Below the pieces are notes generated by a model. That model was not told the DNA's origin. It ran no database searches and saw only the letters and a program-made list of their open reading frames with translations. A stretch of DNA of 64,000 bases, taken from positions 1-64,000 of the forward strand of contig CADCBQ010000002.1 of the NCBI GenBank assembly GCA_902799745.1, given 5' to 3'. Below, piece after piece: positions 2 to 52,863 of this stretch. Numbering within the stretch: position 1 is the stretch's first letter; each line of letters starts with the position of its first letter. The DNA is from Fibrobacter succinogenes. Its GTDB lineage: Bacteria > Fibrobacterota > Fibrobacteria > Fibrobacterales > Fibrobacteraceae. Position numbers and translations under genes: made by a program.

Positions 2-520
2 GAACGGAATACCAAGGATATTGCAGTCATTCAGTCCGACCTTCAGAAGGTCATGGAAAACTTCGTCGATCCTTCGACTTTCAAGCATTTCTTGATTTTA
101 AATGGGCGGAGGCTAGACGCCGATGTCGCCTATACGCAAATTTACGGTATGGCAAAGAAGTCCATCACGATTATCGATGACTATGTCGGTGTAAAGACGC
201 TTGACCTGCTGCGCGGAATCGCCAAGGGCGTTTCCGTGAGGATCTATAGTGACGAGAAAGGTTATGAATCACTAACCGAACAGATTCAGAAAGATTTCCT
301 GAAGGCGCGTCCCGATATCAAATTCGACATGAAAAAGACAAAGGAAAAATTCCACGACCGCTATATCTTCTTGGACTACGGATTAAAAGGCGAGAAGCTT
401 TTCCACTGTGGAGCTTCGAGCAAGGATGCCGGCAATAAAATCACCACCATCATGCAGATTGAAAATACGGAAATTTATCATGTACTGATAGAAAAATTAT
501 TAGTCAATCCTCGTTTATAA
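2..520 (+). CDS. C-terminal part of an ORF6N/RhuM-type protein with a phospholipase-D-like domain (5' end outside window)
   Basis: The reading frame is open from base 2, so the gene starts upstream of the window; a Met at base 53 is internal to the conserved stretch and is probably not the start. The segment resembles the C-terminal half of ORF6N-domain proteins as I recall them: a short helix, a conserved stretch around DPSTFKHFLILNG, then an alpha/beta domain ending in HDRYIFLD and GASSKDAGNK. This looks like a degenerate PLD-type H-x-R/K-x4-D motif. Proteins of this kind occur on prophages and in defence islands, often with an N-terminal DNA-binding ORF6N or KilA-N domain, which cannot be seen here. 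It overlaps the converging SLOG gene by 17 bases. Biochemical role unknown. Confidence 0.6.
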   Translation, partial: ERNTKDIAVIQSDLQKVMENFVDPSTFKHFLILNGRRLDADVAYTQIYGMAKKSITIIDDYVGVKTLDLLRGIAKGVSVRIYSDEKGYESLTEQIQKDFLKARPDIKFDMKKTKEKFHDRYIFLDYGLKGEKLFHCGASSKDAGNKITTIMQIENTEIYHVLIEKLLVNPRL

Positions 521-914
521 TTCTGTACGGTTTCCCCATTTCCTTTATGCGGCGGATGTTTTCGCCAGTGCCTTTGCTTTTTCCGTCCCATATCATAATT
601 GCCTGATCGCAGTCTTTGGCCATTTGAATATCTTTCACATACTGGAATGCACTGCCTGTAAGGCCCTTGGCGGCTTCTGCGCAAGAACGCACTTTTGCAC
701 CTGTAACATAGTTGTTCCTTGGCGTTTCACCGCTGCAATAAATGGTCACGTTACCGCACCCTTTGGATTCCAAATACTTTTGTACCGCAACGTCAACGCC
801 GTAACAATCTCCTACAAGAAATTCTGTACCCAGGGCAATATGTTCGTCAAGTAAAGATTTCACTTCTTCGGACAATGCCGAAATTGACTTTGAACCGGAG
901 ATGAAAACTTTCAT
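504..914 (-). CDS. SLOG-fold protein (YspA/YAcAr-like, DUF2493 type)
   Basis: A 136-residue protein that appears to be a single Rossmann-like SLOG domain. It begins with a beta strand and a glycine/serine turn (KVFISGSKS, residues 2-10), followed by the family-like GDCYGVD motif at residues 35-41 and a later IMIWDGKSKGT strand-loop. SLOG proteins are thought to bind nucleotides or nucleotide-derived signals, and several act as sensors or processors in conflict systems. It is the last gene of the leftward operon; its ATG overlaps the stop of the preceding gene in an ATGA arrangement, which suggests translational coupling. Its ligand and any enzymatic activity cannot be read from the sequence. 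Confidence 0.7.
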   Translation of the reverse strand: MKVFISGSKSISALSEEVKSLLDEHIALGTEFLVGDCYGVDVAVQKYLESKGCGNVTIYCSGETPRNNYVTGAKVRSCAEAAKGLTGSAFQYVKDIQMAKDCDQAIMIWDGKSKGTGENIRRIKEMGKPYRIINED

Positions 915-1291
915 CAGCCCTCCTTTTTTATATAGAAGAATCGGTTAAGTTCGTGGTCGGTTCCGATGGTTTTACCATAGCAGATAAGAACCCACGGGTT
1001 TGGCCACGCCTTGTCAATGGCGTCTAAGAAGGCTTTTTCCATTTCTACGGCTCTTTTGTCAAGATCCGTGGCGTCGACAACGATGTCGGTGTGGGCAAGG
1101 AGCCCTTTATGTTCGGTAAACCGCGAAAACGCCTCTAAATTGTTTTCCTGGATCTCGTTCCCATTGTTCGCAAGAATGTAGCCTGCGATATATTCCCACA
1201 TCTCGTTCCGTTCTTTTTCGTCTGCATACGAACGCTTTACTAGCGATTTCAAGTCGTTGTATTTTTGTGTCGGTGTCATGATAATGTTCAT
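914..1291 (-). CDS. hypothetical protein in the WYL-linked AAA+ operon
   Basis: A 125-residue soluble protein I do not recognise. There is no signal peptide or membrane segment. The first half is charged and predicted helical; the second half contains a DIVVDATDLDKRA stretch and ends in WVLICYGKTIG, which could be a small alpha/beta fold. The start at 1291 is supported by AAGGAGT about eight bases upstream. The gene lies 11 bases after the hydrolase gene and overlaps the SLOG gene by one base, so it is surely part of the same transcript. A role as partner or substrate-binding subunit of the SLOG protein is only a guess from position. Confidence 0.6.
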   Translation of the reverse strand: MNIIMTPTQKYNDLKSLVKRSYADEKERNEMWEYIAGYILANNGNEIQENNLEAFSRFTEHKGLLAHTDIVVDATDLDKRAVEMEKAFLDAIDKAWPNPWVLICYGKTIGTDHELNRFFYIKKEG

Positions 1292-1302
1292 ATTCGCACT
1301 CC

Positions 1303-1914
1303 TTATTTTAATTTATCTTCATAATTTAGCAGCTTCATCAACTCTATTAGTCGAAATTCATTTCTTGAAAAATGATGGTCTTGCCTAGGCACAACCACAA
1401 CGCGCATGTTTTCGTGCTCGTGGAGCTTGAGAAGCCCTGCTAAATGAGCTGAAGGATCGAGACTCCCGAAAACGAATGTCATCATGTCTCCGTCAAATGT
1501 CTTGGCGCTGCGGCATATCCGAGTCGTGTTAATCATGAGTGGGGGATTCACCAACAGGAATCGGCTGATTTCCGGAAATAGAGATCGACCAATGCACCCG
1601 ATGGAGGCGCCCATTGACATTCCCATAAAATAGATTTGTGTCTGCCCGCTAATCTCAAATTCAGATTTTACCACTTCGGCAAATTGAATCATTTGGATTA
1701 TGTCCGATGATGGAGTAGATGCGCAAACTACCGAAAACCCGTACAGGTCCCGCATTTCGCAAGCGAGTTTCGAGTACTTGTTGCGATACCCATAAATGGA
1801 ACCGCCTTGTCCCGCCTTTATCAGCAAAACCTTTTGACGGTCGCTAGCAAAGACGAATCCGTAATCAACGTGATTTTCTCCATTGCCGAAAGGTTTAATT
1901 AAATCGAATTGCAT
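1303..1914 (-). CDS. alpha/beta-hydrolase-fold protein
   Basis: A 203-residue protein with a complete-looking alpha/beta-hydrolase catalytic set. The nucleophile elbow is GMSMG at residues 98-102 (Ser100), a likely acid is Asp153 in FGSLDPS, and the histidine is His180 or His181 in RQDHHF. Nothing in the sequence points to export, so it should act in the cytoplasm. The substrate is unknown; esterase, thioesterase or peptidase activities are all possible. It follows the tandem AAA+ gene by 16 bases on the same strand and precedes two small genes, so it belongs to the operon. Its pairing with a AAA+ ATPase and a SLOG protein is unusual in my experience. Confidence 0.72.
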   Translation of the reverse strand: MQFDLIKPFGNGENHVDYGFVFASDRQKVLLIKAGQGGSIYGYRNKYSKLACEMRDLYGFSVVCASTPSSDIIQMIQFAEVVKSEFEISGQTQIYFMGMSMGASIGCIGRSLFPEISRFLLVNPPLMINTTRICRSAKTFDGDMMTFVFGSLDPSAHLAGLLKLHEHENMRVVVVPRQDHHFSRNEFRLIELMKLLNYEDKLK

Positions 1915-1930
1915 GAAAACTCCTGATATT

Positions 1931-4258
1931 TTACAATCCCATCCTACGGCCTTCGCGAGTATTTTTGCATTCTATTTCATGACGGAGAGCCTCCAGGATG
2001 CTGTCTGTGGTTACTTCGCTTTCTTCGTAGTATTTGAAGGTGTCATGAACGGCCTTGAAGTCGCCTGGGGTAAGCGCCTTCAGATCGCGTGCGGTTGCGG
2101 AACATTCTACTTTTGGGAAGAATGCTTGCCACACCTTTTCGATTCCGTCGGGTTTCAGATAGTTGAATTTGAGTTTAAGCGCAAAGCGCCTGCGTGAGGC
2201 GGCATCCAAATTGTCATTGAAGTTGGTTGCCGCGATGAATATCCCCTTGAAGTTTTCCATCTGCGTCAGGAGTTCGTTCACTTGCGTCACTTCCCAATTG
2301 TGTTCCGCCCCGGCGCGTTCGCTGAGCATGCTGTCGGCTTCATCTAAAAAGAGAATTGCTTTCTTTTCTTCAGCCTCGCGAAACATCTTGCGAATTTTCT
2401 TTTCGGTTTCGCCAATATAGGGACTTAGCAGATCGCTCGCTTTCTTGACAATCAATTTTCGGTTCAATGTTCTTGCGATGTGTTTCGCAAGTTCTGTTTT
2501 GCCCGTACCGGGAACACCATAGAACAATATGTTCAAAGACTCCGGACAATCCATCTCCTGCATGGTTTCCCATTTAGTGTTAAAAGACTGCACCACCTTC
2601 ATAATACGGTTCATGTCTCCTTCGACATTCAATGCGTCAAGGATATATTTGGGCGCATGGCTTTCTTTGTCGCGTTTGGTGTATTCACGACTTAAAGAAA
2701 GTAAATTTGTCTGTGCTTCTGCGATGATACGGACTGCTTTTTCTGGCGGAATTTTGCTGCCTGTTTCCTGTAGTAGTTTCGCTCCGGCAATCGCCTGGGT
2801 CACGCCACCGGCGGTAATGGGGTAGGTGTCGGCAAACTGTTGCACCGTCAAGGGTTCAAGCATTTTACCGGTGCCCTGCTCGCTAATGACGGACTGCCAA
2901 ATTTGTAAACGCTTTTCGGAATCAAGGCGCTCAAATTCAATGGAATAATCAAAACGACGAAGTGTACTGTCTTCGATAAAGCGAATGTTGTTTGAAATCC
3001 AAATAACAGGGACATTTATTTGTTCCAAGAAAAAGTTGAGAGCTCCCTTTTCACAACAATTTAAGATTACATCGGCTTCATCCACCAAGAGAATGGCTCG
3101 CTTGTTTTGGTACTTGGTCGCCGCGAACATGATGCTTCCCAAACGCTCTTGGATAGTTGAATCTTCCTTGCTTTCTCTATGAACGCCATCAATGCTGATA
3201 TTGGTAAGAACCAGCGAACGTTTGAGTTCTTTTGCGATAGCCTTCGCAAGTTCAGTCTTGCCGGTACCTTCGACTCCGTAGAAGAAAATATTGATTCCTT
3301 GATTTGCCTTTACATGTTTCAATAAGTCAAAGGCGACTTCTACTTTCGGGTTGTTGTTGCACAGCTTTTTATAGGGCACACTATTGCCGTCATAAATCTT
3401 GAAATAGAGTGAATCAAGGTCGTTTCCCGAGACCCCGTCTAGAAACAGTCCGATTCTCTTTGAAATTTCCAGATCGTTATCAACAAGTCCCATCCGCTTG
3501 AGTGATGACTTGTTGGAACACGCCTTTTCTATATCCAATTCAGGATAAATGGATGCGAATACATCGGTAAAAACGCAATCACCGAATCTTCGCGAACCAA
3601 TCATGTCGCGAAGGGGGTCGCAAATGTCCTTCTTAAAGAAAATCCACGAGAATATCAAGATTTCCATTTCGACGGAGTCTAGGTTGAACGCTTTCTGCAC
3701 AATGTCAAGACGCTTTAAGTATGGATCGTAGATGTTCTTTTGGTGCTTGAGAAGGTCCATGAGTTCCTTGATGATGCCTTCGTAAAAAATCTTTTTGGCT
3801 GGGCCGTTGAAGATATCTTCGCCAACAAGAGTGCAGTGTGTGACATGTTTTATATCTTCGCTGGAGCCGCTATTCTTGATAGTGTCGCGAATTTTGCCGA
3901 CGGCTCTTTTGCGCTCTCGATAGGATTCCGATTTACCTTCATCTTCTTCGATCCCGTAAAAGCATTCGTCGATTTTATTTCGTGGGGAACGTGATTTTGG
4001 GTCTTTGGTTTTGGGCAGTCTGTCTTCTGCCTTGTTCAGGAGTTCAAAATGCGTTGTAATCCCCCTCAAAATTCGGGAAGCGTTTTCTATAGGGAATATG
4101 CCGATGCTGTCGTCTGCATCGGGATAGTTTTTGGAAATCCTCAGCATACGAATCCAGTATTCATAGCCTTTGAGAGTTACAAAATTGATGCCCAAAGACT
4201 TCTTTTCAGTATTCTTTTGCAGGGATTTAAAAACGTCCTTAAAATATCCTTTTTTCAT
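1931..4258 (-). CDS. tandem AAA+ ATPase (two Walker A/B modules)
   Basis: A 775-residue cytoplasmic protein with about 310 residues of unrecognised helical N-terminal region and two AAA+ modules. Module 1 has Walker A GVEGTGKTE at 328-336, Walker B ILLVDEAD at 389-396, and an arginine pair near 434. Module 2 has Walker A GVPGTGKT at 581-588, Walker B ILFLDEAD at 635-642, a sensor-like ATN, and an arginine finger candidate in SRRRF near 688. Both modules look competent. The layout recalls Cdc48/p97-type classical AAA remodellers, but the N-terminal region differs. AAGGAGC precedes the ATG by about seven bases. It is the first gene of the operon, and a palindrome shared with the WYL regulator lies 47 bases upstream. 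Confidence 0.85.
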   Translation of the reverse strand: MKKGYFKDVFKSLQKNTEKKSLGINFVTLKGYEYWIRMLRISKNYPDADDSIGIFPIENASRILRGITTHFELLNKAEDRLPKTKDPKSRSPRNKIDECFYGIEEDEGKSESYRERKRAVGKIRDTIKNSGSSEDIKHVTHCTLVGEDIFNGPAKKIFYEGIIKELMDLLKHQKNIYDPYLKRLDIVQKAFNLDSVEMEILIFSWIFFKKDICDPLRDMIGSRRFGDCVFTDVFASIYPELDIEKACSNKSSLKRMGLVDNDLEISKRIGLFLDGVSGNDLDSLYFKIYDGNSVPYKKLCNNNPKVEVAFDLLKHVKANQGINIFFYGVEGTGKTELAKAIAKELKRSLVLTNISIDGVHRESKEDSTIQERLGSIMFAATKYQNKRAILLVDEADVILNCCEKGALNFFLEQINVPVIWISNNIRFIEDSTLRRFDYSIEFERLDSEKRLQIWQSVISEQGTGKMLEPLTVQQFADTYPITAGGVTQAIAGAKLLQETGSKIPPEKAVRIIAEAQTNLLSLSREYTKRDKESHAPKYILDALNVEGDMNRIMKVVQSFNTKWETMQEMDCPESLNILFYGVPGTGKTELAKHIARTLNRKLIVKKASDLLSPYIGETEKKIRKMFREAEEKKAILFLDEADSMLSERAGAEHNWEVTQVNELLTQMENFKGIFIAATNFNDNLDAASRRRFALKLKFNYLKPDGIEKVWQAFFPKVECSATARDLKALTPGDFKAVHDTFKYYEESEVTTDSILEALRHEIECKNTREGRRMGL

Positions 4259-4304
4259 ATTTTTGCTCCTTGTTTCGATTTGTTATCAAAATAGGTTTTT
4301 ACTG

Positions 4305-4319
4305 CGACAAATAATGTCG
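4305..4319. promoter_or_regulatory. inverted repeat upstream of the AAA+ operon, probable WYL-regulator operator
   Basis: A perfect 5-bp inverted repeat, CGACA-AATAA-TGTCG, 47 bases before the AAA+ start codon. The surrounding TACTGCGACAAA is also found before the WYL gene (5533-5544), where the same palindrome recurs. Two copies of one palindrome before a regulator gene and its neighbour operon indicate a shared operator. That the WYL protein binds it is inferred. Confidence 0.7.
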
Positions 4320-4409
4320 TATATAGAGGCGCAAAATAGATGCCCGCCAGGTCCTATCGCCACTATGTGGCTCTGGGGTGGTGGGGCATGTCAAATTGAA
4401 TGCTATTGG

Positions 4410-4424
4410 CGACGAATAATGTGA
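4410..4424. promoter_or_regulatory. degenerate third copy of the putative WYL operator
   Basis: CGACG-AATAA-TGTGA keeps the spacing and the same AATAA spacer as the site at 4305-4319 but has lost three arm bases. It lies about 90 bases further upstream. It could be a weak auxiliary site or a decayed duplicate. Confidence 0.35.
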
Positions 4425-4459
4425 TTCTGGATTCCGTCGCCTCTGCGAGGCTCCAGAAT
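4424..4459. repeat. intergenic palindrome (ATTCTGGA ... TCCAGAAT)
   Basis: An 8-bp perfect inverted repeat encloses a second one (GCCTC-tgc-GAGGC), giving a two-step hairpin between the WYL gene and the AAA+ operon. It could fold after the WYL stop codon as a 3' end structure, though no T-run follows. It loosely resembles other intergenic palindromes in the window. Confidence 0.5.
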
Positions 4460-4472
4460 GATGTTTGGCTCT

Positions 4473-5501
4473 TTAACGCCAGGGGTTTTGGCGGTAGGTG
4501 CTGTCGAGGAAATACGAAAAGTCGCGGAGCTTTTTGCGGAGGGCGACAGGTTTGATGACTTCGGCGCTGTCGGCGTACGAAAGTACCCAGCGGAAAAGGA
4601 GCTCGTCGTTTAGGGCCTTCATCGTGACCAGCAGACGGCCGTCGCGGAGTTTTTCCACCTTCATGGAGCGTTGGAACGGCTTTTCTTCGAGGTAATGCTG
4701 CGCATGGCTGCTGAACACAATTTCGACATCTTCGGCTTTCGGGTCTTGCGGCCCAAAAATGGCAGAACCGAGCTGCACACGCTTGCGCAACATTTCAAGT
4801 GTCTTTGGGTTGTCCTGAAAGGTTTCCTTGGTGAGTTCGACCTTCTGGATTCGACGGAATTTGAGTGTATAAGTCTCGCCAGGATGCGACTGTGACTCGC
4901 AACCGATGTAGATTTCGCCCTGGTACAAGATGACCATCAGCGGAATCCGCATGCGAGGGATATTCCCAGTTTCGCTGATATAGGTGACGAGGATTTTTCG
5001 GCGTTCGTGAATCGCCCGCAGAATCACCTTGAGTTTTTCGCTGGAATCTTCCTCGAACATGGGAGGGGTTCCCGCAAAAAGAATTCGCGAATTCAGGTCT
5101 TGAGCGAGCTGTTCCACGGCCTTTTTTTCGTTCGAAGGCAGACTTTTCTGGATTTTTTCAAGCAGATCCGTGACGGTCTCGCTTGCGGCGGGGTACATAT
5201 TCGCGATGCGCTGCAGGAACACGAAATGCAGCATGGTGTTTTCAAAATTCGGGAACAACAGGTTGTCCGCCGATTTAATTGCAGATTGATAAAGGTAGGC
5301 TCGTCGGTCGCCGCTCACGCGGATATAGGCGCCTCCATTAATGGAGGCAAGGAAATTCATGTCTCGTTGCACATTGCGACGCTCGTTTTCAGGAATCTCC
5401 AATGCGGCCATCAAATCGTTGATGGTGTAGGCTCTGCTCGGATTCGAAATCAGGAGCGCAAAAAGCTGGACTGTGCGTTCGCCGCGGGTAATTTCTGCCA
5501 T
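4473..5501 (-). CDS. HTH-WYL transcriptional regulator
   Basis: A 342-residue regulator. Residues 1-75 form an N-terminal winged helix-turn-helix (RTVQLFALLISNPSRAYTIN, then RRNVQRDMNFL as recognition region). A helical linker follows, then a WYL-type SH3-like domain around residues 165-235 (ILVTYISETGN, MVILYQGEIYIG, LKFRRIQKVEL) and a C-terminal extension domain to 342. WYL regulators commonly control phage-defence or stress genes and may bind nucleic-acid or nucleotide ligands. The gene precedes the AAA+ operon on the same strand with a 214-base gap. A 6-bp perfect palindrome (5536-5552) sits 35 bases before its start, matching the one before the operon, so self-regulation is likely. Confidence 0.88.
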   Translation of the reverse strand: MAEITRGERTVQLFALLISNPSRAYTINDLMAALEIPENERRNVQRDMNFLASINGGAYIRVSGDRRAYLYQSAIKSADNLLFPNFENTMLHFVFLQRIANMYPAASETVTDLLEKIQKSLPSNEKKAVEQLAQDLNSRILFAGTPPMFEEDSSEKLKVILRAIHERRKILVTYISETGNIPRMRIPLMVILYQGEIYIGCESQSHPGETYTLKFRRIQKVELTKETFQDNPKTLEMLRKRVQLGSAIFGPQDPKAEDVEIVFSSHAQHYLEEKPFQRSMKVEKLRDGRLLVTMKALNDELLFRWVLSYADSAEVIKPVALRKKLRDFSYFLDSTYRQNPWR

Positions 5502-5535
5502 AATAAACCTCTAAAACTTAATATATCTTATTACT

Positions 5536-5552
5536 GCGACAAAAGATGTCGC
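5536..5552. promoter_or_regulatory. inverted repeat before the WYL gene, probable autoregulatory operator
   Basis: GCGACA-AAAGA-TGTCGC is a perfect 6-bp inverted repeat with a 5-base spacer. It shares the TACTGCGACAAA context with the site at 4305-4319. Its position, 35 bases upstream of the WYL start codon, suits an operator overlapping the promoter. Confidence 0.7.
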
Positions 5553-5924: not shown

Positions 5925-6365
5925 ATGGACCATACAAAACTGACTCAAAGCTTAGAAGATTACCTGGAAATGGTGCATATGTTGCGCCTGGCGAACGGGC
6001 TTGCCCGCGTCAAAGACATTGCTGCCGCTCTCGCCGTGAAAATGCCGTCGGTGGCAAAGGCCATGGTTGAACTCAAGAAAATGGGCCTTGTAAGGCAGGA
6101 ACCCTATAGCGGTGTGGAACTCACCGAAGAGGGCGAACGCGTTGCCGCAATGATTCTGAACCGTCATATTCTTCTGAAGGGATTCCTTATTAAGTTGGGC
6201 GTGTCCGAGGCGATTGCCGACAAGGATGCTTGCAGTATGGAACACATTCTTTCGGCAGAAACGCTCGGTAAGATTGAAGATTTTGTGAAACCGTCGAATG
6301 CGATTGCCTCGGCAAAAGTTTCTTCGGTGAAAAAACTAAGGGTTGTCAAAAACACAAAGGAATGA
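5925..6365 (+). CDS. DtxR/MntR-family metal-dependent repressor (copy 1)
   Basis: A 146-residue protein of MntR-like length: an N-terminal winged helix (residues 8-75, recognition region PSVAKAMVELKKMGL) and a short dimerisation/metal domain, without a C-terminal SH3 domain. Aligned by eye to MntR, the metal ligands would be Asp12, Glu15, His81, Cys103, Glu106 and His107. Asp12/Glu15 look like MntR, while Cys103 is the DtxR/IdeR choice, so the sequence does not settle iron against manganese. Context favours iron: feoA and feoB follow directly. Five TTAG-N6-CTAA boxes precede the gene, consistent with self-repression. The C-terminal tail (122-146) is basic and variable. A close paralogue lies at 10984. 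Confidence 0.88.
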   Translation: MDHTKLTQSLEDYLEMVHMLRLANGLARVKDIAAALAVKMPSVAKAMVELKKMGLVRQEPYSGVELTEEGERVAAMILNRHILLKGFLIKLGVSEAIADKDACSMEHILSAETLGKIEDFVKPSNAIASAKVSSVKKLRVVKNTKE

Positions 6366-6366
6366 T

Positions 6367-6651
6367 ATGAGCTGTAATTGTGGTTGCGGCGGAAAGTCGC
6401 AGACGAAAAAGTGGAGTACCGAGCCCAAGTTCTCGGAACTCAAAAAGGGCGACAAGGTAGAGATCGTCGGTTATAACGAGGGCGATTCTGCTTATAAGTC
6501 CAAGTTGCTTTCGATGGGCCTTGTGCGTGGCGTCCAGATCGAAGTCTTGCAAGCTGCCCCGCTCGGCGATCCGATCGAAGTGGCCGTGCTTTCTTATAGA
6601 CTCTCGCTCCGTAAAGAAGAAGCGAACGTGCTCAAGCTGAGGAGGGTATAA
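6367..6651 (+). CDS. feoA: FeoA, ferrous iron transport accessory protein (copy 1)
   Basis: A 94-residue protein with a FeoA-type SH3-like domain over residues 20-94 (FSELKKGDKVEIVGYNEG, SMGLVRGVQIEVLQ, LSYRLSLRKEEANVLKLRRV). FeoA is thought to interact with and modulate FeoB. The start at 6367 is chosen because AAAGGA lies six bases upstream and because an earlier ATG would overlap the dtxR gene by 23 bases. The N-terminus MSCNCGCGG carries three cysteines that the second FeoA lacks; they might bind metal. It follows dtxR by one base and its TAA overlaps the feoB ATG, so the three genes form one operon. Confidence 0.88.
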   Translation: MSCNCGCGGKSQTKKWSTEPKFSELKKGDKVEIVGYNEGDSAYKSKLLSMGLVRGVQIEVLQAAPLGDPIEVAVLSYRLSLRKEEANVLKLRRV

Positions 6652-9260
6652 TGGCTGCTAGAAAACTTTTGACGATTGCTATTGCCGGTAACCCGAACTG
6701 CGGTAAGACGGCTCTCTTTAACGCCCTTACGGGTGCCCGTCAGCATGTGGGTAACTGGCCCGGCGTGACTGTCGAAAAGAAAGAAGGTTACTTTGAACTG
6801 GGCGACCGCCAGATTCGCCTGGTGGACCTTCCGGGTACTTACGCTCTGTTCGCAAATGCCGAAGACGAACGCGCTGCTGTCGATTACTTGCTTAGCCGCG
6901 AAGCAAGCTTGATCATCAACATCGTCGATGCCACGAACCTGGAACGTAACCTGTTCCTCACGAGTCAGCTTGCCGATATGCATATCCCGATGGTGATTGC
7001 CGTCAATATGATGGATATCGCCGAAAATCGTGGAATCCAGCTGGATCTCGATGAACTTTCTGACGTTTACGGCGTGCCGTGCATTCCGCTTTCCGCTGTG
7101 AGCGAAAAGAGCGTCACTAACTTTATCAGCCAAATGGGCCATGTGCTGGCATCTCCGATGCCGCTCCCGAAACAGATGGTTTATGGTGACAAGATTGAAG
7201 AAACCGTTAAGGTCTTGGAACCGAAGGTGGCTCCGGTCGCAAAGCTCTTGGATGCGGACGCTCGTTGGGTTTCGCTCATGTATTTGGGCAACCAGAATAG
7301 CTATGCCGACAAGTTTGCCGAAGCTGGCGTAAAGATTAACAAGGCCGACGTTACAAAGATTCTTGGCGAAGAACCGGAATTTGCGATGGCCGAAAACCGC
7401 TATTCCATTTCGCACAGTGTGGCAGGCAAGGCAATTGTCGCTGCACGCGAAAAGAAGACCTTCTCGGATAAACTTGACGCCGTACTTTTGAACCGCTGGG
7501 CGGCGCTCCCGATCTTCCTTGTCATCATGTATTTGGTGTTCTGGGTAGCAGTCACTATCGGTTCTGCATTCATTGATTTCTTTGATGTACTGTTTGGTGC
7601 AATTTTTGTGGACGGCCTCGGCTACGTGCTCACGGATGTTCTCCATGCGCCGAGTTTTGTGTCCGCTATTCTCGCCGACGGTATCGGTGCCGGTATCCAG
7701 ACGGTTTCGACCTTTATCCCGGTGATTTTCTTCATGTTCCTGTGCCTTTCCTTCTTGGAAGACTCGGGTTACATGGCTCGTGCCGCTTTCGTTGCAGACC
7801 GCTTCATGAGATTCCTTGGCCTTCCGGGTCGCGCCTTCGTGCCGATGATGGTGGGCTTTGGTTGCGGCGTGCCTGGCATTATGGGCTCTCGCGTGCTGGA
7901 ATCCAAGCGTGAACGTTTCCTCACCATCTTCTTGGTGCCGTTCATGAGCTGCGGCGCTCGCCTTCCGGTGTATGCGCTGTTTGCCGCTGCATTCTTTGGT
8001 AAAATGGCGGGCACGGTTGTGTTCCTGCTTTACCTCGCCGGCGTGCTGTTCGCAGTTGCTTACGGTCTCTTCTTGAAGAAGTCCCTGTTCCAGGGCCAGG
8101 CCAGCAACTTTGTGATGGAACTTCCGCCGTATCATTTGCCGAAGTTCAAGTCCTTGATGATTCACTGCTGGCAGCGCCTGCGTGACTACATCTGGCGTGC
8201 TGGTAAGGTGATTACGATCGCCGTTGCTATTCTTGGCTTCCTCAACAGCTTCGGTATTGTCGAGAAGGCTGCGGACGAAAATGCTCCGGCCGATGAACCT
8301 GCCGGATTTGAATTTACAGCTGGTAATGGAGACTCTGAAAACAGCTTGCTCTCTGTAATCGGTAAGGCGATTACGCCGGTGTTCGAACCGTTCGGTGTCG
8401 AAAAGGAAAACTGGCCGGCCTCTGTGTCTCTGTTCACGGGTCTCTTGGCTAAGGAAGCCGTTATCGGTACTATGAACTCGCTGTATTCCATGGCGGGTGA
8501 AAATGCCGAGGCTCCCGCAGAAGAAAAACCGCTTATCGCCGGTGTAGACGAATGCCCCGCCGAAGAAGAGGAAGAAGGTGGCGCTCCCGATATCAAGGGC
8601 GCCGTGCTCGAAGCCCTCGGCTCGATTCCTGCTAACCTCGCCGAAGTCTTTGGCTCCCTCACCGACCCGCTCGGAACTACCGGCGAATTGGAAGGCCAGG
8701 AAGCTGCCGAACTTAAGAAAGAAACTCTGGACAAGATTACCGACGCCAAGGTGCTGACCTGCGAAGAATTCGCTGCCATCGAAACCTTCGGCGAAGAAGA
8801 GGATGACGAAAAGACCCGCGAAGCCGTGTTTGCAAAGCTCGCTGCCGCAGGCCTCGAACTCTCCGAAGACGAAATGGGCGCTCTCGAAGAAGGCGACCTT
8901 TCCGAAACCGCCGACATCTACGCGAACCTCCGCTCTTACTTCCATAATCCGGACAAGAACGGTAACCCGGTGGATGGCTTTAACTGGCAGGTGTTTGCGT
9001 TCCTCATCTTCATCTTGCTTTACGTGCCGTGCCTTGCCGCTATGGGCGTGGTCGCTCGCGAAATCGGCCTCGGCCTCGCTGTGCTCATGGCGACCGTGCA
9101 GACGCTCCTTGCCTGGGCGATTGCCGTGCTCCTCTACCAGGTTCCTGTTGGCGGAAACATGACATGGATTGTCGCCGCCATTGTGGTGCTCGTGGGTACG
9201 GGGATTTTCCTCAAGCTCTTCGGCATGAAGGCGAATAAAGAAAAGCGTTTCGAAGACTAA
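6651..9260 (+). CDS. feoB: FeoB ferrous iron permease (copy 1)
   Basis: An 869-residue inner-membrane Fe(II) transporter. The N-terminal G domain has GNPNCGKT (G1, about residues 11-18), DLPGTYAL (G3) and VNMMD (G4). A helical insertion follows, then the membrane domain from about residue 280 with the two Gate-type segments (GFGCGVPGIMG and FMSCGARLPVY). A long acidic, low-complexity segment (about residues 540-770, many EE and DE runs) lies between late membrane helices, making this copy longer than typical FeoB and than its paralogue (783). Expected to be derepressed when iron is low, through the boxes before dtxR. A hairpin terminator follows at 9279. Confidence 0.93.
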   Translation: MAARKLLTIAIAGNPNCGKTALFNALTGARQHVGNWPGVTVEKKEGYFELGDRQIRLVDLPGTYALFANAEDERAAVDYLLSREASLIINIVDATNLERNLFLTSQLADMHIPMVIAVNMMDIAENRGIQLDLDELSDVYGVPCIPLSAVSEKSVTNFISQMGHVLASPMPLPKQMVYGDKIEETVKVLEPKVAPVAKLLDADARWVSLMYLGNQNSYADKFAEAGVKINKADVTKILGEEPEFAMAENRYSISHSVAGKAIVAAREKKTFSDKLDAVLLNRWAALPIFLVIMYLVFWVAVTIGSAFIDFFDVLFGAIFVDGLGYVLTDVLHAPSFVSAILADGIGAGIQTVSTFIPVIFFMFLCLSFLEDSGYMARAAFVADRFMRFLGLPGRAFVPMMVGFGCGVPGIMGSRVLESKRERFLTIFLVPFMSCGARLPVYALFAAAFFGKMAGTVVFLLYLAGVLFAVAYGLFLKKSLFQGQASNFVMELPPYHLPKFKSLMIHCWQRLRDYIWRAGKVITIAVAILGFLNSFGIVEKAADENAPADEPAGFEFTAGNGDSENSLLSVIGKAITPVFEPFGVEKENWPASVSLFTGLLAKEAVIGTMNSLYSMAGENAEAPAEEKPLIAGVDECPAEEEEEGGAPDIKGAVLEALGSIPANLAEVFGSLTDPLGTTGELEGQEAAELKKETLDKITDAKVLTCEEFAAIETFGEEEDDEKTREAVFAKLAAAGLELSEDEMGALEEGDLSETADIYANLRSYFHNPDKNGNPVDGFNWQVFAFLIFILLYVPCLAAMGVVAREIGLGLAVLMATVQTLLAWAIAVLLYQVPVGGNMTWIVAAIVVLVGTGIFLKLFGMKANKEKRFED

Positions 9261-9278
9261 CCTTTGGAATCAAGAACA

Positions 9279-9307
9279 GGGCTGGTAGGCCCAAAACCTA
9301 CCGGCCC
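9279..9307 (+). terminator. hairpin after feoB copy 1
   Basis: GGGCTGGTAGG pairs with CCTACCGGCCC around a seven-base loop 18 bases after the feoB stop. The following tract is only moderately T-rich. Confidence 0.6.
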
Positions 9308-9325
9308 TTCATTAAAAATCTTGAA

Positions 9326-9339
9326 TTAGATTAGTCTAA
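9326..9339. promoter_or_regulatory. TTAG-N6-CTAA box before the porin gene
   Basis: TTAGATTAGTCTAA is the exact reverse complement of the box at 5825-5838. It lies 25 bases upstream of the sigma-54 promoter element, an upstream placement that would suit either activation or interference. Confidence 0.65.
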
Positions 9340-9364
9340 TTTTTGGAACTAAGCTGAAACATCT

Positions 9365-9380
9365 TGGCACGCATTTTGCA
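9365..9380 (+). promoter_or_regulatory. sigma-54 promoter (-24/-12) of the porin gene
   Basis: TGGCACGCATTTTGCA matches the sigma-54 consensus TGGCAC-N5-TTGCA at every defined base. Transcription would begin near 9391, leaving a leader of about 97 bases before the ATG at 9488. No enhancer-binding protein gene is in the window. Confidence 0.8.
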
Positions 9381-9487
9381 ACAATAGCACACAGAAGGCG
9401 ATAGCCAAGCGTTTTTGTAGCACTATTTGTAAAAAACCTGACGGAGTGTTACAAAAACAGAAAATCAATCCGTCAAGGGAGAGAAAT

Positions 9488-10825
9488 ATGAAGAACCGTT
9501 TGACGTCTAATCTTTTGTTCGGTCTTGCAGCCGCTTCCTTCTTTGCTGTGTCTGCATTTGCTCAGGGTGCCGCCCCTGCCGCCGAAGCCCCCGCTGCAGC
9601 CCCTGTACAGGAAGCCCCTGCCGCCGCTCCGGCACAGGAAACTCCTGTCGCTGCCGCTCCTGCCGAAGAAAAAAACGCTGAATCCGCTCCTGCCGAAAAC
9701 ACTAACCCGGGCGAAGTCGCTGACGCCGCCGGTAACGCTCTTGGCATGCTCAAGGCTAGCATGAACGAAGGCACTTCGGAAGCCCAGATGGAAGTCAAGT
9801 ACAATGGCGAAGTTGAATTCGATGCTTACACAGGCAATGTCTGGGCAGAAGATGACCTGAACCATTCCTATGCTTCTACCTTCGATCTGAATTTTGAAGT
9901 CAAGTTCAACGAAAAGTGGTCTGCGTTCGTGGGCCTCGAAGCCGATGGCGAAACCACTGATCCGGGTGCCATTTACAATGGTGCTTACGTTCAGTACCAG
10001 CCGGCTGATTTCTTCGCCGTCAAGCTGGGTGATCTGACCTTCTCGGAAGGTGCATTCGTTGCCTACTATGACTACGACGATCCTGCCGACAATGCTGCTG
10101 GTATGAAGGAACACGATATCCGCGGTTTTGAAATCGACTTGGCAGGCTTTATTCTCGGCTTTGGCTTTGGCCGTGGCGATAACGACTGGGCCGATGAAGA
10201 AGGTGCCAAGGTTTATGATGTCCACGCCGCTTACGAATTCGACTACGCCGGTCAGCACTTGCGTCCGTATGTGGACTATAAGAGCTTCCAGACCGCTCAG
10301 CATAACGAACTCCATGCCGGTGTCGAAGCGGGCCTCTCTATCGGTGGCTTTGGCTTCAGGGCCGTGTATGGTTTCCATGCTGATTACCTGATGGACGACG
10401 GTGATGTCGTGGAAGGTCAGGACTGGACTTCTACTGCCCACGCCTTCTTGGTTGAGCCGACCTTCGAAGTGGGTATGTTCGATATCAAGACGACTGCCTT
10501 CTACGCCCTCATCGACAGAGGTGATGCTGCCGAGGATGCTAGCGACCTTGATAACGGCGAAATCCCGGAATACTTCTTCCTGTACGCCGAACCGGCCTTC
10601 AAGTTTGCTGAATTCATCAAGGTTGGCATTCCTGTAGAATACCACACGCACACTTTGGATGATGATGACGATACCGCTGCTACGTTCGATGTCGGTGCCC
10701 GTGTCTACATCACTCCGGTCGAAAACCTGGAAATCACCGCTTTCGGCATGGTGGATGTTGCCGTGCAGGATAACGAAGACGACAATGCTCTGCGTTTCGG
10801 TCTTGAAACGGTGTACAGCTTCTAA
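9488..10825 (+). CDS. outer-membrane porin-like beta-barrel protein with Ala/Pro-rich N-terminus
   Basis: A 445-residue exported protein. A signal peptide covers residues 1-25 (MKNRLTSNLLFGLAAASFFA ... FAQG), followed by an Ala/Pro/Glu linker (about 26-75) that could lie in the periplasm, then repeated amphipathic strands with many Asp, Tyr and Gly residues, ending in a terminal aromatic (VYSF), typical of barrel proteins. The start at 9488 follows an AGGGAGAG ribosome site; an earlier ATG at 9446 lacks one. It lies between two feo operons, with a TTAG-N6-CTAA box and a perfect sigma-54 promoter upstream. A role in bringing iron or another solute across the outer membrane is inferred from position only. 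Confidence 0.72.
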   Translation: MKNRLTSNLLFGLAAASFFAVSAFAQGAAPAAEAPAAAPVQEAPAAAPAQETPVAAAPAEEKNAESAPAENTNPGEVADAAGNALGMLKASMNEGTSEAQMEVKYNGEVEFDAYTGNVWAEDDLNHSYASTFDLNFEVKFNEKWSAFVGLEADGETTDPGAIYNGAYVQYQPADFFAVKLGDLTFSEGAFVAYYDYDDPADNAAGMKEHDIRGFEIDLAGFILGFGFGRGDNDWADEEGAKVYDVHAAYEFDYAGQHLRPYVDYKSFQTAQHNELHAGVEAGLSIGGFGFRAVYGFHADYLMDDGDVVEGQDWTSTAHAFLVEPTFEVGMFDIKTTAFYALIDRGDAAEDASDLDNGEIPEYFFLYAEPAFKFAEFIKVGIPVEYHTHTLDDDDDTAATFDVGARVYITPVENLEITAFGMVDVAVQDNEDDNALRFGLETVYSF

Positions 10826-10850
10826 TTACCTCGCATAATGCGCAAAAACG

Positions 10851-10880
10851 GGACTGTGGCGTTTTGCCGCGGTCCTTTTT
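10851..10880 (+). terminator. intrinsic terminator after the porin gene
   Basis: GGACTGTGGC pairs with GCCGCGGTCC (two G-U pairs) around a five-base loop, followed immediately by TTTTT, 25 bases after the stop. Confidence 0.85.
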
Positions 10881-10897
10881 GATATGCTTTCCGCAGT

Positions 10898-10945
10898 TTA
10901 GCCTTTACTAATTAGCCGAGGCTTTCTAAATTTAGCTATGACTAA
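10898..10945. promoter_or_regulatory. two TTAG-N6-CTAA boxes before the second dtxR-feoAB unit
   Basis: Boxes at 10898-10911 (TTAGCCTTTACTAA) and 10932-10945 (TTAGCTATGACTAA) have the arms and spacing seen before the first unit. A further TTAG/CTAA pair at 10912-10929 has the wrong spacing. The ATG is 38 bases downstream of the last box. Confidence 0.65.
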
Positions 10946-10983
10946 TATATCAGGTGTGTTTTTCGTCTAATCGGAGCTGTCCT

Positions 10984-11406
10984 ATGGAACAAGTAAAGTT
11001 AAGCCAGAGCCTTGAAGACTACTTGGAAATGGTGCACATGCTGCGCCTTGCGAACGGGATTGCCCGTGTCCGCGACATTGCGGCGGCGCTCAAGGTCAAG
11101 ATGCCGTCGGTGGCCAAGGCGGTAATCGAACTCAAGAAGTTGGGCCTTGTGACGCAGGAGCCTTACAGCGGCATCGAACTCACGTCGGAAGGTGCGCTCG
11201 TGGCGTCCCAGATTCTGAACCGTCACATTCTGCTGAAGAGTTTTTTGATCAAGCTCGGTATCTCCGAGGCGATTGCCGACAAGGATGCCTGCTGCATGGA
11301 ACACATTCTTTCGGCGGAGACTCTCGAAAAAATCGAAGAGTTTGTGAACGCTCCCAATGAGCCGGCGAAAAAGTCGAAGACTGCCGCTAAATCTACGAAA
11401 AAGTAA
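10984..11406 (+). CDS. DtxR/MntR-family metal-dependent repressor (copy 2)
   Basis: A 140-residue close paralogue of the repressor at 5925, nearly identical through the DNA-binding and metal-binding regions and different only in the lysine-rich tail. Predicted ligands are Asp12, Glu15, His81, Cys103, Glu106 and His107, with an extra Cys104. The start at 10984 is favoured because it aligns with the paralogue; the in-frame ATG at 10954 would add ten unrelated residues. Two TTAG-N6-CTAA boxes lie upstream. It heads a second dtxR-feoA-feoB operon, with 11 bases to feoA. Near-identical recognition helices suggest that the two repressors bind the same sites. Confidence 0.87.
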   Translation: MEQVKLSQSLEDYLEMVHMLRLANGIARVRDIAAALKVKMPSVAKAVIELKKLGLVTQEPYSGIELTSEGALVASQILNRHILLKSFLIKLGISEAIADKDACCMEHILSAETLEKIEEFVNAPNEPAKKSKTAAKSTKK

Positions 11407-11417
11407 ATCGTTGGTGT

Positions 11418-11657
11418 ATGAATAACGAACCGAAGTTTTCGGAACTTAAAAAAGGCGACAAGGCCGAAATTATTGGATACAACACGGGTGATTCTCAATA
11501 CAAGTCCAAACTTTTGTCGATGGGACTTGTGCGTGGTGTGGTGTTGCAGGTTTTGCAGGTGGCCCCGCTGGGCGATCCGGTCGAGGTCAGCGTGCTTTCG
11601 TATAGGCTCTCGCTCCGCAAGCAAGAAGCCAATGTGCTTCAGTTGAGGAGAGTCTAA
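11418..11657 (+). CDS. feoA: FeoA, ferrous iron transport accessory protein (copy 2)
   Basis: A 79-residue FeoA-domain protein, nearly the same as residues 18-94 of the first copy (KFSELKKGDKAEIIGYNTGD, LSYRLSLRKQEANVLQLRRV) but without its cysteine-rich N-terminus. The TAA stop overlaps the feoB ATG as in the first operon, so the coupled layout has been kept. No strong ribosome site is seen before the ATG; translation may depend on the dtxR gene 11 bases upstream. Confidence 0.87.
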   Translation: MNNEPKFSELKKGDKAEIIGYNTGDSQYKSKLLSMGLVRGVVLQVLQVAPLGDPVEVSVLSYRLSLRKQEANVLQLRRV

Positions 11658-14008
11658 TGCCTATCGAGAAAGAAACTTTCACGATTGCGATTGCAGGCAA
11701 CCCGAACTGCGGAAAGACCGCGTTGTTCAACTCGCTTACCGGCTCGAACCAGATTGTGGGCAACTGGCCGGGCGTGACCGTCGAAAAGAAAGAAGGTCAG
11801 TTCAAGCTCGACAACCACACGATTCGCGTGGTGGACTTGCCGGGTATTTACGCGCTGTTTGCAAACTCCGAAGACGAACGCGCCGCTCTCGATTACCTGC
11901 TCAAGGGCGAGGCGGACCTGGTCGTGAACATTCTGGATGCTACGAACCTGGAACGCAACCTGTTCCTCACGAGCCAGTTGATGGAAAAAGGCGTGCCGAT
12001 GGTCTTGGCGGTGAACATGATGGACATCGCGGCGAGCCGCGGCATCCATGTGGACCTGCACAAGCTCGAAGAAATCCTCGGCGTGACGGCGATTGGCCTT
12101 ACGGCGGTGTCGCCCAAGAGTTGCGAAGGCTTCGTGAACGACTTGCATAAGCTGCTGCACAATAGTCGTGAATTGCCACTCCCGAAGGCGGTCAAGCATT
12201 CCGAAGTCCTTGAAAAGCTGATTGAAGAAATCTCGGTGCCGCTTAAGCCCGTGGCTGACAAGCTCGGTGCAAGCCCGCGCTGGACGGCGGTGCAGTACCT
12301 GGAGCATAGCGGGCGAGTGCTGGAACTTGCTGACGAACTCGGTGTCGAAATTCCGCACGACAAGATCGAAGAGGACTTGGGCGAAGAGGTGGAATTTGCG
12401 TTAGCCGATTCCCGCTACTCCTACGCCCGCGATATTGCGAAGGCGGTGATTCGCGACAACACGAACAAGCGTACGCGAACCGACAAACTCGATAAGCTCT
12501 TCTTGAACCGCGTCTTGGGAATACCGCTTTTCCTGATCGCCATGTATCTGGTGTTCTGGTTTGCGGTGAAGGTCGGCAGTGCGTTTATTGATTTCTTTGA
12601 CATTTTGTTCGGCGGAATTTTCGTGGATGGCATGACGGAACTCCTGACAAAGATTGGAGCGCCTGGCGTTGTCGTAGCGCTCTTGGCGAACGGCATCGGT
12701 ACGGGTATCCAGACGGTATCGACGTTCATTCCGGTCATCTTCTTCATGTTCCTTTGCCTTTCGTTCCTCGAAGATTCCGGCTACATGTCCCGTGCAGCGT
12801 TCGTGGCAGATCGCTTTATGCGGTTCCTCGGGCTCCCGGGCAAGGCCTTTGTGCCGATGATTGTGGGCTTTGGCTGCTCGGTGCCGGCGCTTATGGGCAC
12901 ACGTACGCTCGAAAACAAGCGCGAAAGGTTCCTTACTTTGTTCCTGGTGCCGTTTATGAGCTGCGGCGCGCGCCTCCCGGTGTATGCGCTGTTCGGTGCG
13001 GCATTTTTCGGCGAAAGCGCAGGGACGCTCGTGTTCGGAATTTACCTGACGGGTATCGTGATTGCCTTGATTTACGGTTTGCTCCTGCGCCATACGGTTT
13101 TCATGGGCAAGGAATCGACATTCATCATGGAACTGCCGCCTTACCATTTGCCCAAGGTGCGCAACCTTTTCCGCCACGCATGGCTCCGCCTCAAGGAATT
13201 CGTTTTCCGTGCGGGCAAGGTCGTGCTCATTATGGTGACGGTGCTTGGCTTTATGGGCTCCGTCGGCACGGATGGCAGTTTTGGTAATGACAACAACGAA
13301 AAGTCGGTGCTGAGTGCCGTGGGTACGGTGATTACGCCAGTGTTTGAACCTTTCGGCGTTGAACGCGACAACTGGCCTGCATCTGTCGCGCTCTTTACGG
13401 GGCTCTTTGCGAAGGAAGCGATTGTGGGTACGCTTAACTCGCTGTATGCCATCGAGGGCACGGGCGACGCTGACGCTGCTAACGCTGCCGAAAAAGCGGG
13501 GGAGGCCGGCGCGCTTGCTGCTGCCGACGCGGCCCCGGAAGAAACTGCGGCGGACGAAGGCTTTAGCCTGAAATCTACGGTGAAAGATGCTCTCGTGAGC
13601 GTCCCGGCGAACCTGGTAGAAGTCTTTACGTCCATCGCGAACCCGCTGGGAGTCAAGGCTGCGATTGAAGAATCCGAAGGTGCCGGAAACGAAGGTGCGT
13701 ACAAGACCATGCAGGCGCATTTCAACCTGGGGCGTTTCCAGGTGCTGGCCTACCTGCTGTTCATCTTGCTCTATGTGCCGTGCCTTGCCGCCATGGGAAC
13801 CGCCTTCCGTGAACTCGGGCGCTTCTACGGAACGCTCATGATGGTGTTTCAGACGGTTATCGGCTGGAGTCTCTCGGTGCTGTTCTTCCAGCTGACCTGC
13901 GGGCATTCCGTCGCGCTGATTATCACCTCGGTGGTGCTTCTCGCCGGTGTGGTCGTCGCACTTGTAGCCATCGGACGTGACCAACGCAAGAAGAGAGTGT
14001 TCGAATAG
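11657..14008 (+). CDS. feoB: FeoB ferrous iron permease (copy 2)
   Basis: A 783-residue Fe(II) permease paralogous to the protein at 6651. The G domain has GNPNCGKT, DLPGIYAL and VNMMD. The membrane domain has the Gate-type segments GFGCSVPALMG and FMSCGARLPVY; the first differs from copy 1 (GCGVPGIMG). The loop between late membrane helices (about residues 595-690) is shorter and richer in alanine than the acidic insert of copy 1. The two FeoBs therefore differ at a pore-lining motif and in a cytoplasmic or periplasmic loop, which could mean different affinity or regulation. Codon choice is similar to copy 1. Confidence 0.93.
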   Translation: MPIEKETFTIAIAGNPNCGKTALFNSLTGSNQIVGNWPGVTVEKKEGQFKLDNHTIRVVDLPGIYALFANSEDERAALDYLLKGEADLVVNILDATNLERNLFLTSQLMEKGVPMVLAVNMMDIAASRGIHVDLHKLEEILGVTAIGLTAVSPKSCEGFVNDLHKLLHNSRELPLPKAVKHSEVLEKLIEEISVPLKPVADKLGASPRWTAVQYLEHSGRVLELADELGVEIPHDKIEEDLGEEVEFALADSRYSYARDIAKAVIRDNTNKRTRTDKLDKLFLNRVLGIPLFLIAMYLVFWFAVKVGSAFIDFFDILFGGIFVDGMTELLTKIGAPGVVVALLANGIGTGIQTVSTFIPVIFFMFLCLSFLEDSGYMSRAAFVADRFMRFLGLPGKAFVPMIVGFGCSVPALMGTRTLENKRERFLTLFLVPFMSCGARLPVYALFGAAFFGESAGTLVFGIYLTGIVIALIYGLLLRHTVFMGKESTFIMELPPYHLPKVRNLFRHAWLRLKEFVFRAGKVVLIMVTVLGFMGSVGTDGSFGNDNNEKSVLSAVGTVITPVFEPFGVERDNWPASVALFTGLFAKEAIVGTLNSLYAIEGTGDADAANAAEKAGEAGALAAADAAPEETAADEGFSLKSTVKDALVSVPANLVEVFTSIANPLGVKAAIEESEGAGNEGAYKTMQAHFNLGRFQVLAYLLFILLYVPCLAAMGTAFRELGRFYGTLMMVFQTVIGWSLSVLFFQLTCGHSVALIITSVVLLAGVVVALVAIGRDQRKKRVFE

Positions 14009-50987: not shown

Positions 50988-52088
50988 CTATGCTTCGTCG
51001 CTTACGGAAACTTCGTCGCCGTCGTCAGCTTCGATGGCATCGCCTTCGTTCAGCTTGAACAGCTCCACGTCCTTCATGCTTTCGCGGATCTTCTGCTCGA
51101 TTTCGTTGCAGAGTTCCTCGTTGTCCTTCAGGAACAGGCGGGTGTTTTCACGACCCTGGCCAATGCGTTCGTTGTTGTAGCTGAACCAGGAACCGCTCTT
51201 CTGGATAATGTCGAGTTCGGTTGCGAGGTCGAGGATAGAGGCTTCGCGCGAAATACCGCAACCGTAAAGGATGTCGAATTCGCACTGGGTAAACGGAGCG
51301 GCCACCTTGTTCTTGACCACCTTGACGCGGGTGCGGTTACCGATCACTTCTTCGCCGTCCTTGATGGCGGCGATGCGACGGATGTCGATACGCTGGGTGG
51401 CGTAGAACTTCAGGGCGTTACCGCCGGTGGTCGTTTCGGGGTTGCCGAACATCACGCCGATCTTCATACGCAGCTGGTTAATGAACAGCATGCAGGTGTT
51501 AGACTTCGAAAGAATACCGGTGAGCTTACGCAGGGCCTGGCTCATGAGGCGAGCCTGCAGACCCACATGGTTGTCGCCCATTTCGCCGTTGATTTCGGCC
51601 TGCGGCACGAGCGCTGCCACGGAGTCGATCACGATGATATCGATAGCGCCGGAACGCACGAGGGTCTCGGCAATGTCCAAGGCCTGTTCACCGGTATCCG
51701 GCTGGGAAACTAGGAGGGATTCGATATCGACACCGAGCTTGCGGGCGTAGACGGCGTCAAAAGCGTGTTCTGCATCGATAAAGGCTGCAACGCCGCCGAG
51801 TTTCTGGGCTTCGGCAATGGCGTGCAAGGTCAATGTTGTCTTACCGGAAGATTCGGGTCCGTAAATTTCGATAATGCGGCCGCGCGGGAAACCGCCTACG
51901 CCAAGAGCCATGTCAAGCTGGATACAACCCGTAGGAATAACGGGGATATCTTCGACGGGCTGCTGGCCGAGTGCCATGATGGAACCTTTACCATAATTCT
52001 TTTCAATCTGGGCGATAGCAGCTTCAACTGCCTTGGCTTTATCTGCGGAAAGGTTGCTGGTCGGGGTGTTTGTTGTTTTCTTAGCCAT
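50988..52088 (-). CDS. recA: recombinase RecA
   Basis: A 366-residue recombinase for homologous repair and SOS induction. Walker A is [10 protein letters not shown] near residue 70, Walker B is [12 protein letters not shown], the L1/L2 DNA-binding loops include [21 protein letters not shown] in part and [17 protein letters not shown] in part, and the C-terminus is acidic. The start at 52088 (MAKKTTN) is chosen because GGAG lies eight bases upstream; an ATG four codons earlier includes that site. An imperfect hairpin at about 50911-50952 may end the transcript. Confidence 0.98.
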
Positions 52089-52128
52089 GTTGGACTCCAT
52101 TTTGTTTTTTCGTTTCTAAATATAACAT

Positions 52129-52680
52129 TTAGTGTTCACTTGTGCAAGTGCTTTTTTGGTTATTCAATAAAAAAAGTAACTTGCCCATAACACATAACAC
52201 GCTTTTTTCACGTACTTGAGTACGGTTTCCTTCGAAAATTTTACAAAAAGCCTCGTTTTGCAAACTATTGGCGACAGCCATCCACACTGTACCAACAGGT
52301 TTGCCGGGCTCTGCGCCGGTGGGGCCTGCAATACCCGAGGTGGCAATGGCCCATTCGCAACCGAATTTTTTGCGGGCGCCTTCGGCCATGGCCTTTACGG
52401 TTTCGGCCGAAACGGCACCCTTTTCTTCGAGCACCTGGTGGGGTACCCCAAGCAAGGCTTCTTTAACTTCGTTCTGGTAGGCGACAATGCCGCCGGCAAG
52501 TACAGCCGAGGTTCCGGCCTCGTTCACGATGCTGCTTGCCACAAGGCCGCCCGTAAGCGATTCGGCGGTAGCCATCATTTCGCCACGTGCGATGAGCGTA
52601 TCCTTGATTGCCTTGACCAACAGGGAAATCTTGTTTTCGAAGTCTTCGCTTTGAAGATCAAAATCTTTTGTATCGCTCAT
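52129..52680 (-). CDS. CinA C-terminal-type nicotinamide-nucleotide amidohydrolase
   Basis: A 183-residue protein equal to the C-terminal domain of CinA, as in E. coli PncC. Conserved segments are ATAESLTGGLVASSIVN, GGIVAYQNEVKEALLGV, and ATSGIAGPTGAEPGKPVGTVW. Family members deamidate NMN for NAD recycling. The start at 52680 (MSDTKDF) is nine bases after GGAG; an upstream in-frame ATG at 52716 is less likely. It lies 40 bases upstream of recA on the same strand, an arrangement (cinA-recA) common in bacteria. Confidence 0.9.
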   Translation of the reverse strand: MSDTKDFDLQSEDFENKISLLVKAIKDTLIARGEMMATAESLTGGLVASSIVNEAGTSAVLAGGIVAYQNEVKEALLGVPHQVLEEKGAVSAETVKAMAEGARKKFGCEWAIATSGIAGPTGAEPGKPVGTVWMAVANSLQNEAFCKIFEGNRTQVREKSVLCVMGKLLFLLNNQKSTCTSEH

Positions 52681-52863
52681 TTTCATACTCCATAATTTAG
52701 AATTATTTTGTGTCATAAAATGACAATTAAGTAAAAACCTGAAATTTTTTTGAAAATATACCTTTTGGAACCTCGGTATGCTGTTCCTTTGCGAAAAAAT
52801 GAAAAATTATTGCCAAAGATCGAAAAAAACATATATTTGTACAAACGAATATAAAGGAGAACA

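Follow-up and report, generated by a model that had tools for sequence, protein, structure and literature searches.

WYL activators of DNA damage responses are known from Caulobacter and mycobacteria and are among the closest described counterparts of the locus reported here. DriD of Caulobacter crescentus is a WYL protein that activates a response to damage independently of SOS, and its site, ATACGAC(X)7GTCGTAT, covers a poor -35 element at a single distance from the -10 element (PMC12340889). PafBC of mycobacteria is heterodimeric, recognizes a site that is not a palindrome and binds only together with the polymerase (PMC6789036, PMC11804915). We analyzed a stretch of 64,000 nucleotides from the rumen bacterium Fibrobacter succinogenes (contig CADCBQ010000002.1, positions 1 to 64,000; hereafter the window), at the start of which a WYL regulator gene adjoins an operon for a tandem AAA+ ATPase, an alpha/beta hydrolase, a 125-residue protein and a SLOG-superfamily protein. 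An earlier note on this DNA had proposed these genes as an undescribed WYL-regulated system with a shared palindrome. The five genes are all present as it placed them, on the minus strand; the palindrome is not private to them but genus-wide, with a close variant at recA, recN, dnaQ and recC leader genes.

The operator CGACA-N5-TGTCG, equivalent to CGAC-N7-GTCG, occurs in two perfect copies in the window, compared to 0.17 expected, and two copies were reached in 1 of 100 shuffles. The promoter of the AAA+ operon (4288..4319, minus strand) consists of the operator CGACATTATTTGTCG at 4305-4319, an 11-bp spacer and the -10 element TATTTT at 4288-4293, with no -35 element, and the WYL gene's own promoter (5520..5551, minus strand) of the operator CGACATCTTTTGTCG at 5537-5551, the same 11 bp and TATATT at 5520-5525. 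The first operator stands 46 bp before the AAA+ gene (47 in the earlier note) and the second 35 bp before the WYL gene, while the TAnnnT hexamer 11 bp after both had been overlooked. A degenerate third copy had also been proposed. It was located at 4410..4424 (CGACGAATAATGTGA, no strand assigned) and is at best vestigial because it keeps a single half-site and has no -10 element at the right distance.

Outside the window, TAnnnT was found exactly 11 bp 3' of the operator in 61 of 82 distinct intergenic sites and at no more than 13 for any other offset; this count covers fetched loci, some of them picked for carrying the motif, and the genome scans are less biased. A scan of 80 genomes for YGNCANNNNTTGTCG-N11-TANNNT gave 233 matches compared to 21 for the reversed-pattern control. 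Genomes with the WYL family of the window had a mean of 4.2 composite sites compared to 0.66 in those without it (Mann-Whitney P = 5e-11, which overstates independence, the genomes being related), with the control unchanged. None of 56 distinct operator promoters had more than 3/6 matches to TTGACA at 16-18 bp spacing, compared to 11 of 30 other TATAWT promoters that matched it at 4/6 or better. The operator is a genus-wide promoter element in Fibrobacter and is not private to the window locus; its fixed geometry, the missing -35, its recurrence and its tie to WYL presence can all be read directly from the sequences. The association with WYL genes, the recurrence outside this strain and the presence of operators in relatives, on which the earlier proposal depended, were all seen. 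In one genome of another family (G040), 16 operator matches with at most one mismatch were counted and none in the control, and the promoter plan may therefore extend past the genus.

A core variant, TGWCA-N5-TGWCA-N11-TAnnnT, gave about 140 matches in 17 genomes with none in the control. It was found 5' of cinA-recA, of recN-like, parE-like and dnaQ-like genes, of recC leader genes and of several ORF6N genes. All 31 sequences examined, that of the window among them, have the dyad in one form or the other ahead of cinA-recA; in the window the cinA-recA operon (50988..52716, minus strand) has the core-variant promoter TGTCATTTTATGACA-N11-TAAATT at 52694-52725. Curated models named RecA, CinA-like, RadA, DnaQ-like, Cas12a, Cas1, Cas2 and RecC among the targets, DnaQ-like and RecC being assigned by family match (RecC below the cut-off), and RecN and ParE-like were read by eye. 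A mixed type, YGNCA-N5-TGTCG, was present at radA, cas12a and some recA and recC-operon sites. In two genomes (L204:963+ and L212:606+) a TGTCATTATTTGTCG-N11-TATATT promoter is directly followed by cas12a-cas1-cas2 and a CRISPR array. A match to a characterised housekeeping pathway, which the earlier note had set against its own proposal, holds for the promoter and not for the cassette genes. LexA was rejected as an explanation of the operator, since TGCNCN4GTGCA, which we take to be the Fibrobacter LexA box, was not found in the window; four of the scanned loci around recA had a match, and in the two whose coordinates were compared this match sits at the cinA 3' end.

We consider it probable that a WYL regulon extends across the genus and that the locus is one of its strain-variable cassettes. 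The WYL protein together with a signal, most likely single-stranded DNA (ssDNA), would activate its own gene and the AAA+ operon, the products forming an accessory stress or defence module. The mechanism, for which we infer activation, the ssDNA signal, an outcome in defence and what each gene does, would begin with a WYL dimer binding CGAC-N7-GTCG, which has its centre where a -35 would lie and is separated from the -10 by 11 bp. Its ligand would most likely be ssDNA from damaged or replicating foreign DNA, and the ligand-bound protein would recruit RNA polymerase and raise expression of WYL and the AAA+ operon. The AAA+ protein would remodel a target, with the hydrolase and SLOG pair acting as effector and as sensor or antitoxin. 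By analogy, the WYL protein more probably senses ssDNA and activates, in the manner of DriD and PafBC, than represses locally, because the operator is genus-wide, lies 11 bp from the -10 with no -35 and has a variant at recA and repair genes. By the same analogy, the nucleotide signal that the earlier note inferred would be better assigned to the WYL protein than to the SLOG protein.

Several points weigh against this explanation. The WYL family of the window is missing from 29 of the 80 genomes, some of which carry recA, radA or cas12a sites, so another regulator must serve the core-type sites that these genomes keep. The strict-pattern operator lies just 5' of the AAA+ gene in 11 of 17 close relatives, which makes it frequent and not universal, and a phmmer search of the WYL protein against PDB chains gave no match, so that it is placed with DriD at the level of the WYL family. 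BrxR of bacteriophage exclusion (BREX) and CapW of the cyclic oligonucleotide-based anti-phage signalling system (CBASS) are WYL repressors, and it is neighbouring genes and weak fold similarity that suggest a defence role. At least one WYL protein was found in each of 25 genomes, and many genomes have a second WYL type of about 330 residues whose own promoter is without the operator; this protein is a candidate regulator of the core-variant sites. Falling a little short of an even prospect is a two-tier WYL-controlled damage response on one promoter plan, in which the second, widespread WYL protein would drive recA, recN, radA, recBCD, dnaQ and cas12a, and WYL paralogues on islands would control interchangeable cassettes of the AAA+/hydrolase/SLOG and MoxR/vWA kinds. 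One ssDNA-type signal would then link repair with CRISPR and accessory immunity.

The regulator (4473..5501; 342 residues, WYL/WCX with an N-terminal helix-turn-helix) is followed on the minus strand by the tandem AAA+ ATPase of 775 residues (1931..4258), the alpha/beta hydrolase with a GxSxG motif (1303..1914), the 125-residue protein of no assigned family (914..1291) and the SLOG protein of 136 residues (504..914), the four cassette genes overlapping or lying 11-16 bp apart. This exact four-gene order, at an island next to dtxR-feoB where McrBC and MoxR/vWA genes are found too, was seen only here. The same island holds WYL, AAA+, hydrolase and SLOG in L034, L153 and L154, and WYL, AAA+, another gene, hydrolase, 125-residue gene and SLOG in L152, while in L138 two genes of 360-371 residues replace the AAA+ gene. 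Elsewhere the order is 125-residue gene, AAA+ and SLOG (L035) or hydrolase, 125-residue gene and SLOG without this AAA+ (L137); hydrolase and SLOG are fused in one gene in L036, Fibrobacter intestinalis (L160) has separate operators for the hydrolase and the 125-residue gene, and in other strains (e.g., L177) the operator is followed by the 125-residue gene by itself. About 50 relatives of the tandem AAA+ protein were found in 61 genomes (32-93% identity, often several per genome), in which the hydrolase was present in 6, the SLOG protein in 12 and the 125-residue protein in 8, mostly adjoining a SLOG or hydrolase gene. In a scan of 84,980 species, which detects only relatives with shared short peptide patterns, relatives of the hydrolase were confined to genomes of Fibrobacter type and two Selenomonadaceae. 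Judged from these gene orders, the operon is a modular, strain-variable cassette and not a fixed system, and the swapping, like the variant at recA and recN, is plain from the genomes themselves. The earlier grouping of AAA+, hydrolase, 125-residue and SLOG proteins as one system was not borne out, and a fixed five-gene defence system was ruled out, as members are lost, separated, fused, reordered or replaced between strains.

The locus shares a variable island with genes for McrBC, ORF6N/PDC-S05 and a PLD-helicase, which supports the earlier proposal on this point; MoxR with DUF2201 vWA and DnaB-like genes were further neighbours in window-type and related loci. Pairs of a MoxR-like AAA and a DUF2201 vWA/metallopeptidase occur with small unknown genes, some behind the operator (L138:1523-3837, L132:4733-7217, L151:13855-16232), and three genes that include a PLD-family nuclease and a ResIII-type helicase are repeatedly found as a set near WYL genes (L140:2889-6984, L146:1361-5441, L206:4299-7999). 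In Anaerovibrio slackiae (L162:2864-11644) a 30%-identical hydrolase is followed by two large AddB/AddA-like genes, read by eye. Phage records gave one weak hydrolase match and SLOG matches on short C-terminal stretches, some annotated as DprA-like.

Pfam assigned two AAA domains (PF00004, two stretches) to the AAA+ protein, and WYL (PF13280) and WCX (PF25583), both above their cut-offs, to the regulator, in which the helix-turn-helix was read from the alignment with no model score. The hydrolase had a weak match with a score below the cut-off, and the SLOG and 125-residue proteins had no significant Pfam family match. The putative hydrolase triad Ser100-Asp153-His180 is invariant down to 30% identity in the alignment. 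The structure model of the SLOG protein (predicted local distance difference test score, pLDDT, 95.7) has a Rossmann-like fold with glycine-rich loops, as expected of the SLOG superfamily, and its top Foldseek matches were ShosA, DprA and LOG (probability 1.00, best E 1.8e-3). A loop, WDGKSxGTxxN, is conserved in the alignment of the SLOG proteins. No PADLOC ShosA or PsyrA model matched the window protein, and PDB sequence searches with the SLOG and hydrolase proteins gave nothing usable. Residues 1-305 of the AAA+ protein form a helical domain (model pLDDT 81) with no PDB match, ahead of the two AAA modules; the best PADLOC and NCBIfam match of the protein, IetA, scored 145.3 bits against a cut-off of 510. 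As the earlier note had supposed, the gene set matches no named defence system, and membership of BREX, CBASS, Thoeris or IetAS was rejected for the operon proteins because core genes are absent or score below the cut-off. SLOG relatives in other Fibrobacterota families (L120:695-2085, L121:1339-2474) overlap phosphoribosyltransferase (PRTase) genes matching PsyrT and ShosT models and are possibly undescribed ShosTA-like pairs.

Of the other ways to explain the promoters, one takes the WYL protein as a BrxR/CapW-type repressor whose operator blocks the polymerase until infection or damage, the operon being an ordinary repressed defence system. Defence-island WYL repressors are documented (PMC9122601, PMC9122588), and autorepression would agree with the operator that precedes the regulator gene itself; however, none of the 56 promoters has a usable -35, so there would be little to repress, and the rigid 11-bp spacing and DriD-like core better fit an activator over the -35. 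We regard repression as improbable. Reading the palindromes as chance matches or as regulatory noise of local origin would suit the window, with just two copies and a full composite that, at 2 mismatches, is not commoner there than in shuffles, but for the genus this is already refuted by the excess over the controls in both scans and retains next to no probability.

With respect to the gene products, the hydrolase, 125-residue and SLOG genes could be a toxin-antitoxin-like module behind whichever first gene, analogous to ShosTA and PsyrTA, in which the hydrolase would be the toxin and the SLOG protein, being DprA-like, its antitoxin or a sensor; this is compatible with the preferred explanation as its effector step. 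The SLOG model is nearest to ShosA and DprA, distant SLOG relatives adjoin ShosT/PsyrT-like PRTases, DprA homologues serve as antitoxins in shosTA (PMC9122126), and hydrolase and SLOG form one fused gene in L036 and keep company in L137, L138 and L157, where the AAA+ gene is absent, but the failure of the PADLOC ShosA and PsyrA models, a hydrolase without a nearby SLOG gene in L160 and SLOG without a hydrolase in L035, L133 and L139 make it doubtful. A hydrolase effector held by its DprA-like SLOG partner is the lead hypothesis for that pair, though a tentative one that we would sooner doubt than accept. The cassette might instead be a damage-inducible maintenance module that remodels proteins or turns over lipids or metabolites and plays no part in defence, as the paralogous AAA+ genes directly upstream of recC-recB in several strains and the Anaerovibrio gene order would suggest. 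Strong strain-to-strain swapping and McrBC, ORF6N and PLD-helicase neighbours better fit conflict genes, and we think a pure maintenance role rather unlikely.

Convergent with the cassette, the C-terminal part of an ORF6N (PDC-S05) gene with a PADLOC match (2..520, plus strand) is truncated by the contig end, a cut overlooked earlier. The N-terminal remainder lies at G000:C4:3-635 behind an ordinary TTGACA-N17-TATATT promoter without the operator. Two successive DtxR-FeoA-FeoB sets (5925-13999 of the window) adjoin the island.

The interest of the locus lies more in its regulation than in any new defence system. A recA/recN/Cas12a regulon of this kind, if true, would extend the WYL plan to a third phylum, which would point to a widespread plan, and would bring CRISPR-Cas12a as well as swappable conflict cassettes under the control of a damage-type promoter. 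The promoter signature is almost background-free and usable to find further cassettes.

Compared to known systems, the cassette resembles the anti-phage IetAS in the AAA module of its ATPase IetA, and differs in having two AAA modules, a helical N-terminal domain and no IetS protease family match in the operon. It shares the DprA-like SLOG fold with ShosTA and PsyrTA, and outgroup SLOG relatives are paired with ShosT/PsyrT-like PRTases, but the partner in the window is an alpha/beta hydrolase, PRTase partners being confined to L120 and L121. Like BrxR and CapW, the WYL regulator has a palindrome in the promoter of its own gene and adjoins a variable operon of defence type, whereas here the operon holds no BREX or CBASS genes, the geometry suggests activation and the motif reaches repair genes. 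The RecA-NDp motif is TTGTCR-N11-TAnnnT, and such PafBC-controlled promoters likewise combine a WYL factor, a half-site before the -10, no -35 and, as for the Fibrobacter motif family, recA among the targets, unlike which the Fibrobacter site is palindromic and one WYL gene is present. Compared to DriD, the predicted Fibrobacter binding sites differ in the outer base and the TGWCA variant and would serve a far larger gene set (recA, recN, recBCD, Cas12a and exchangeable cassettes); the two nevertheless share the core CGAC-N7-GTCG, its position on a weak -35 with one constant spacing to the -10, a WYL regulator and, for the motif family, DNA-metabolism targets.

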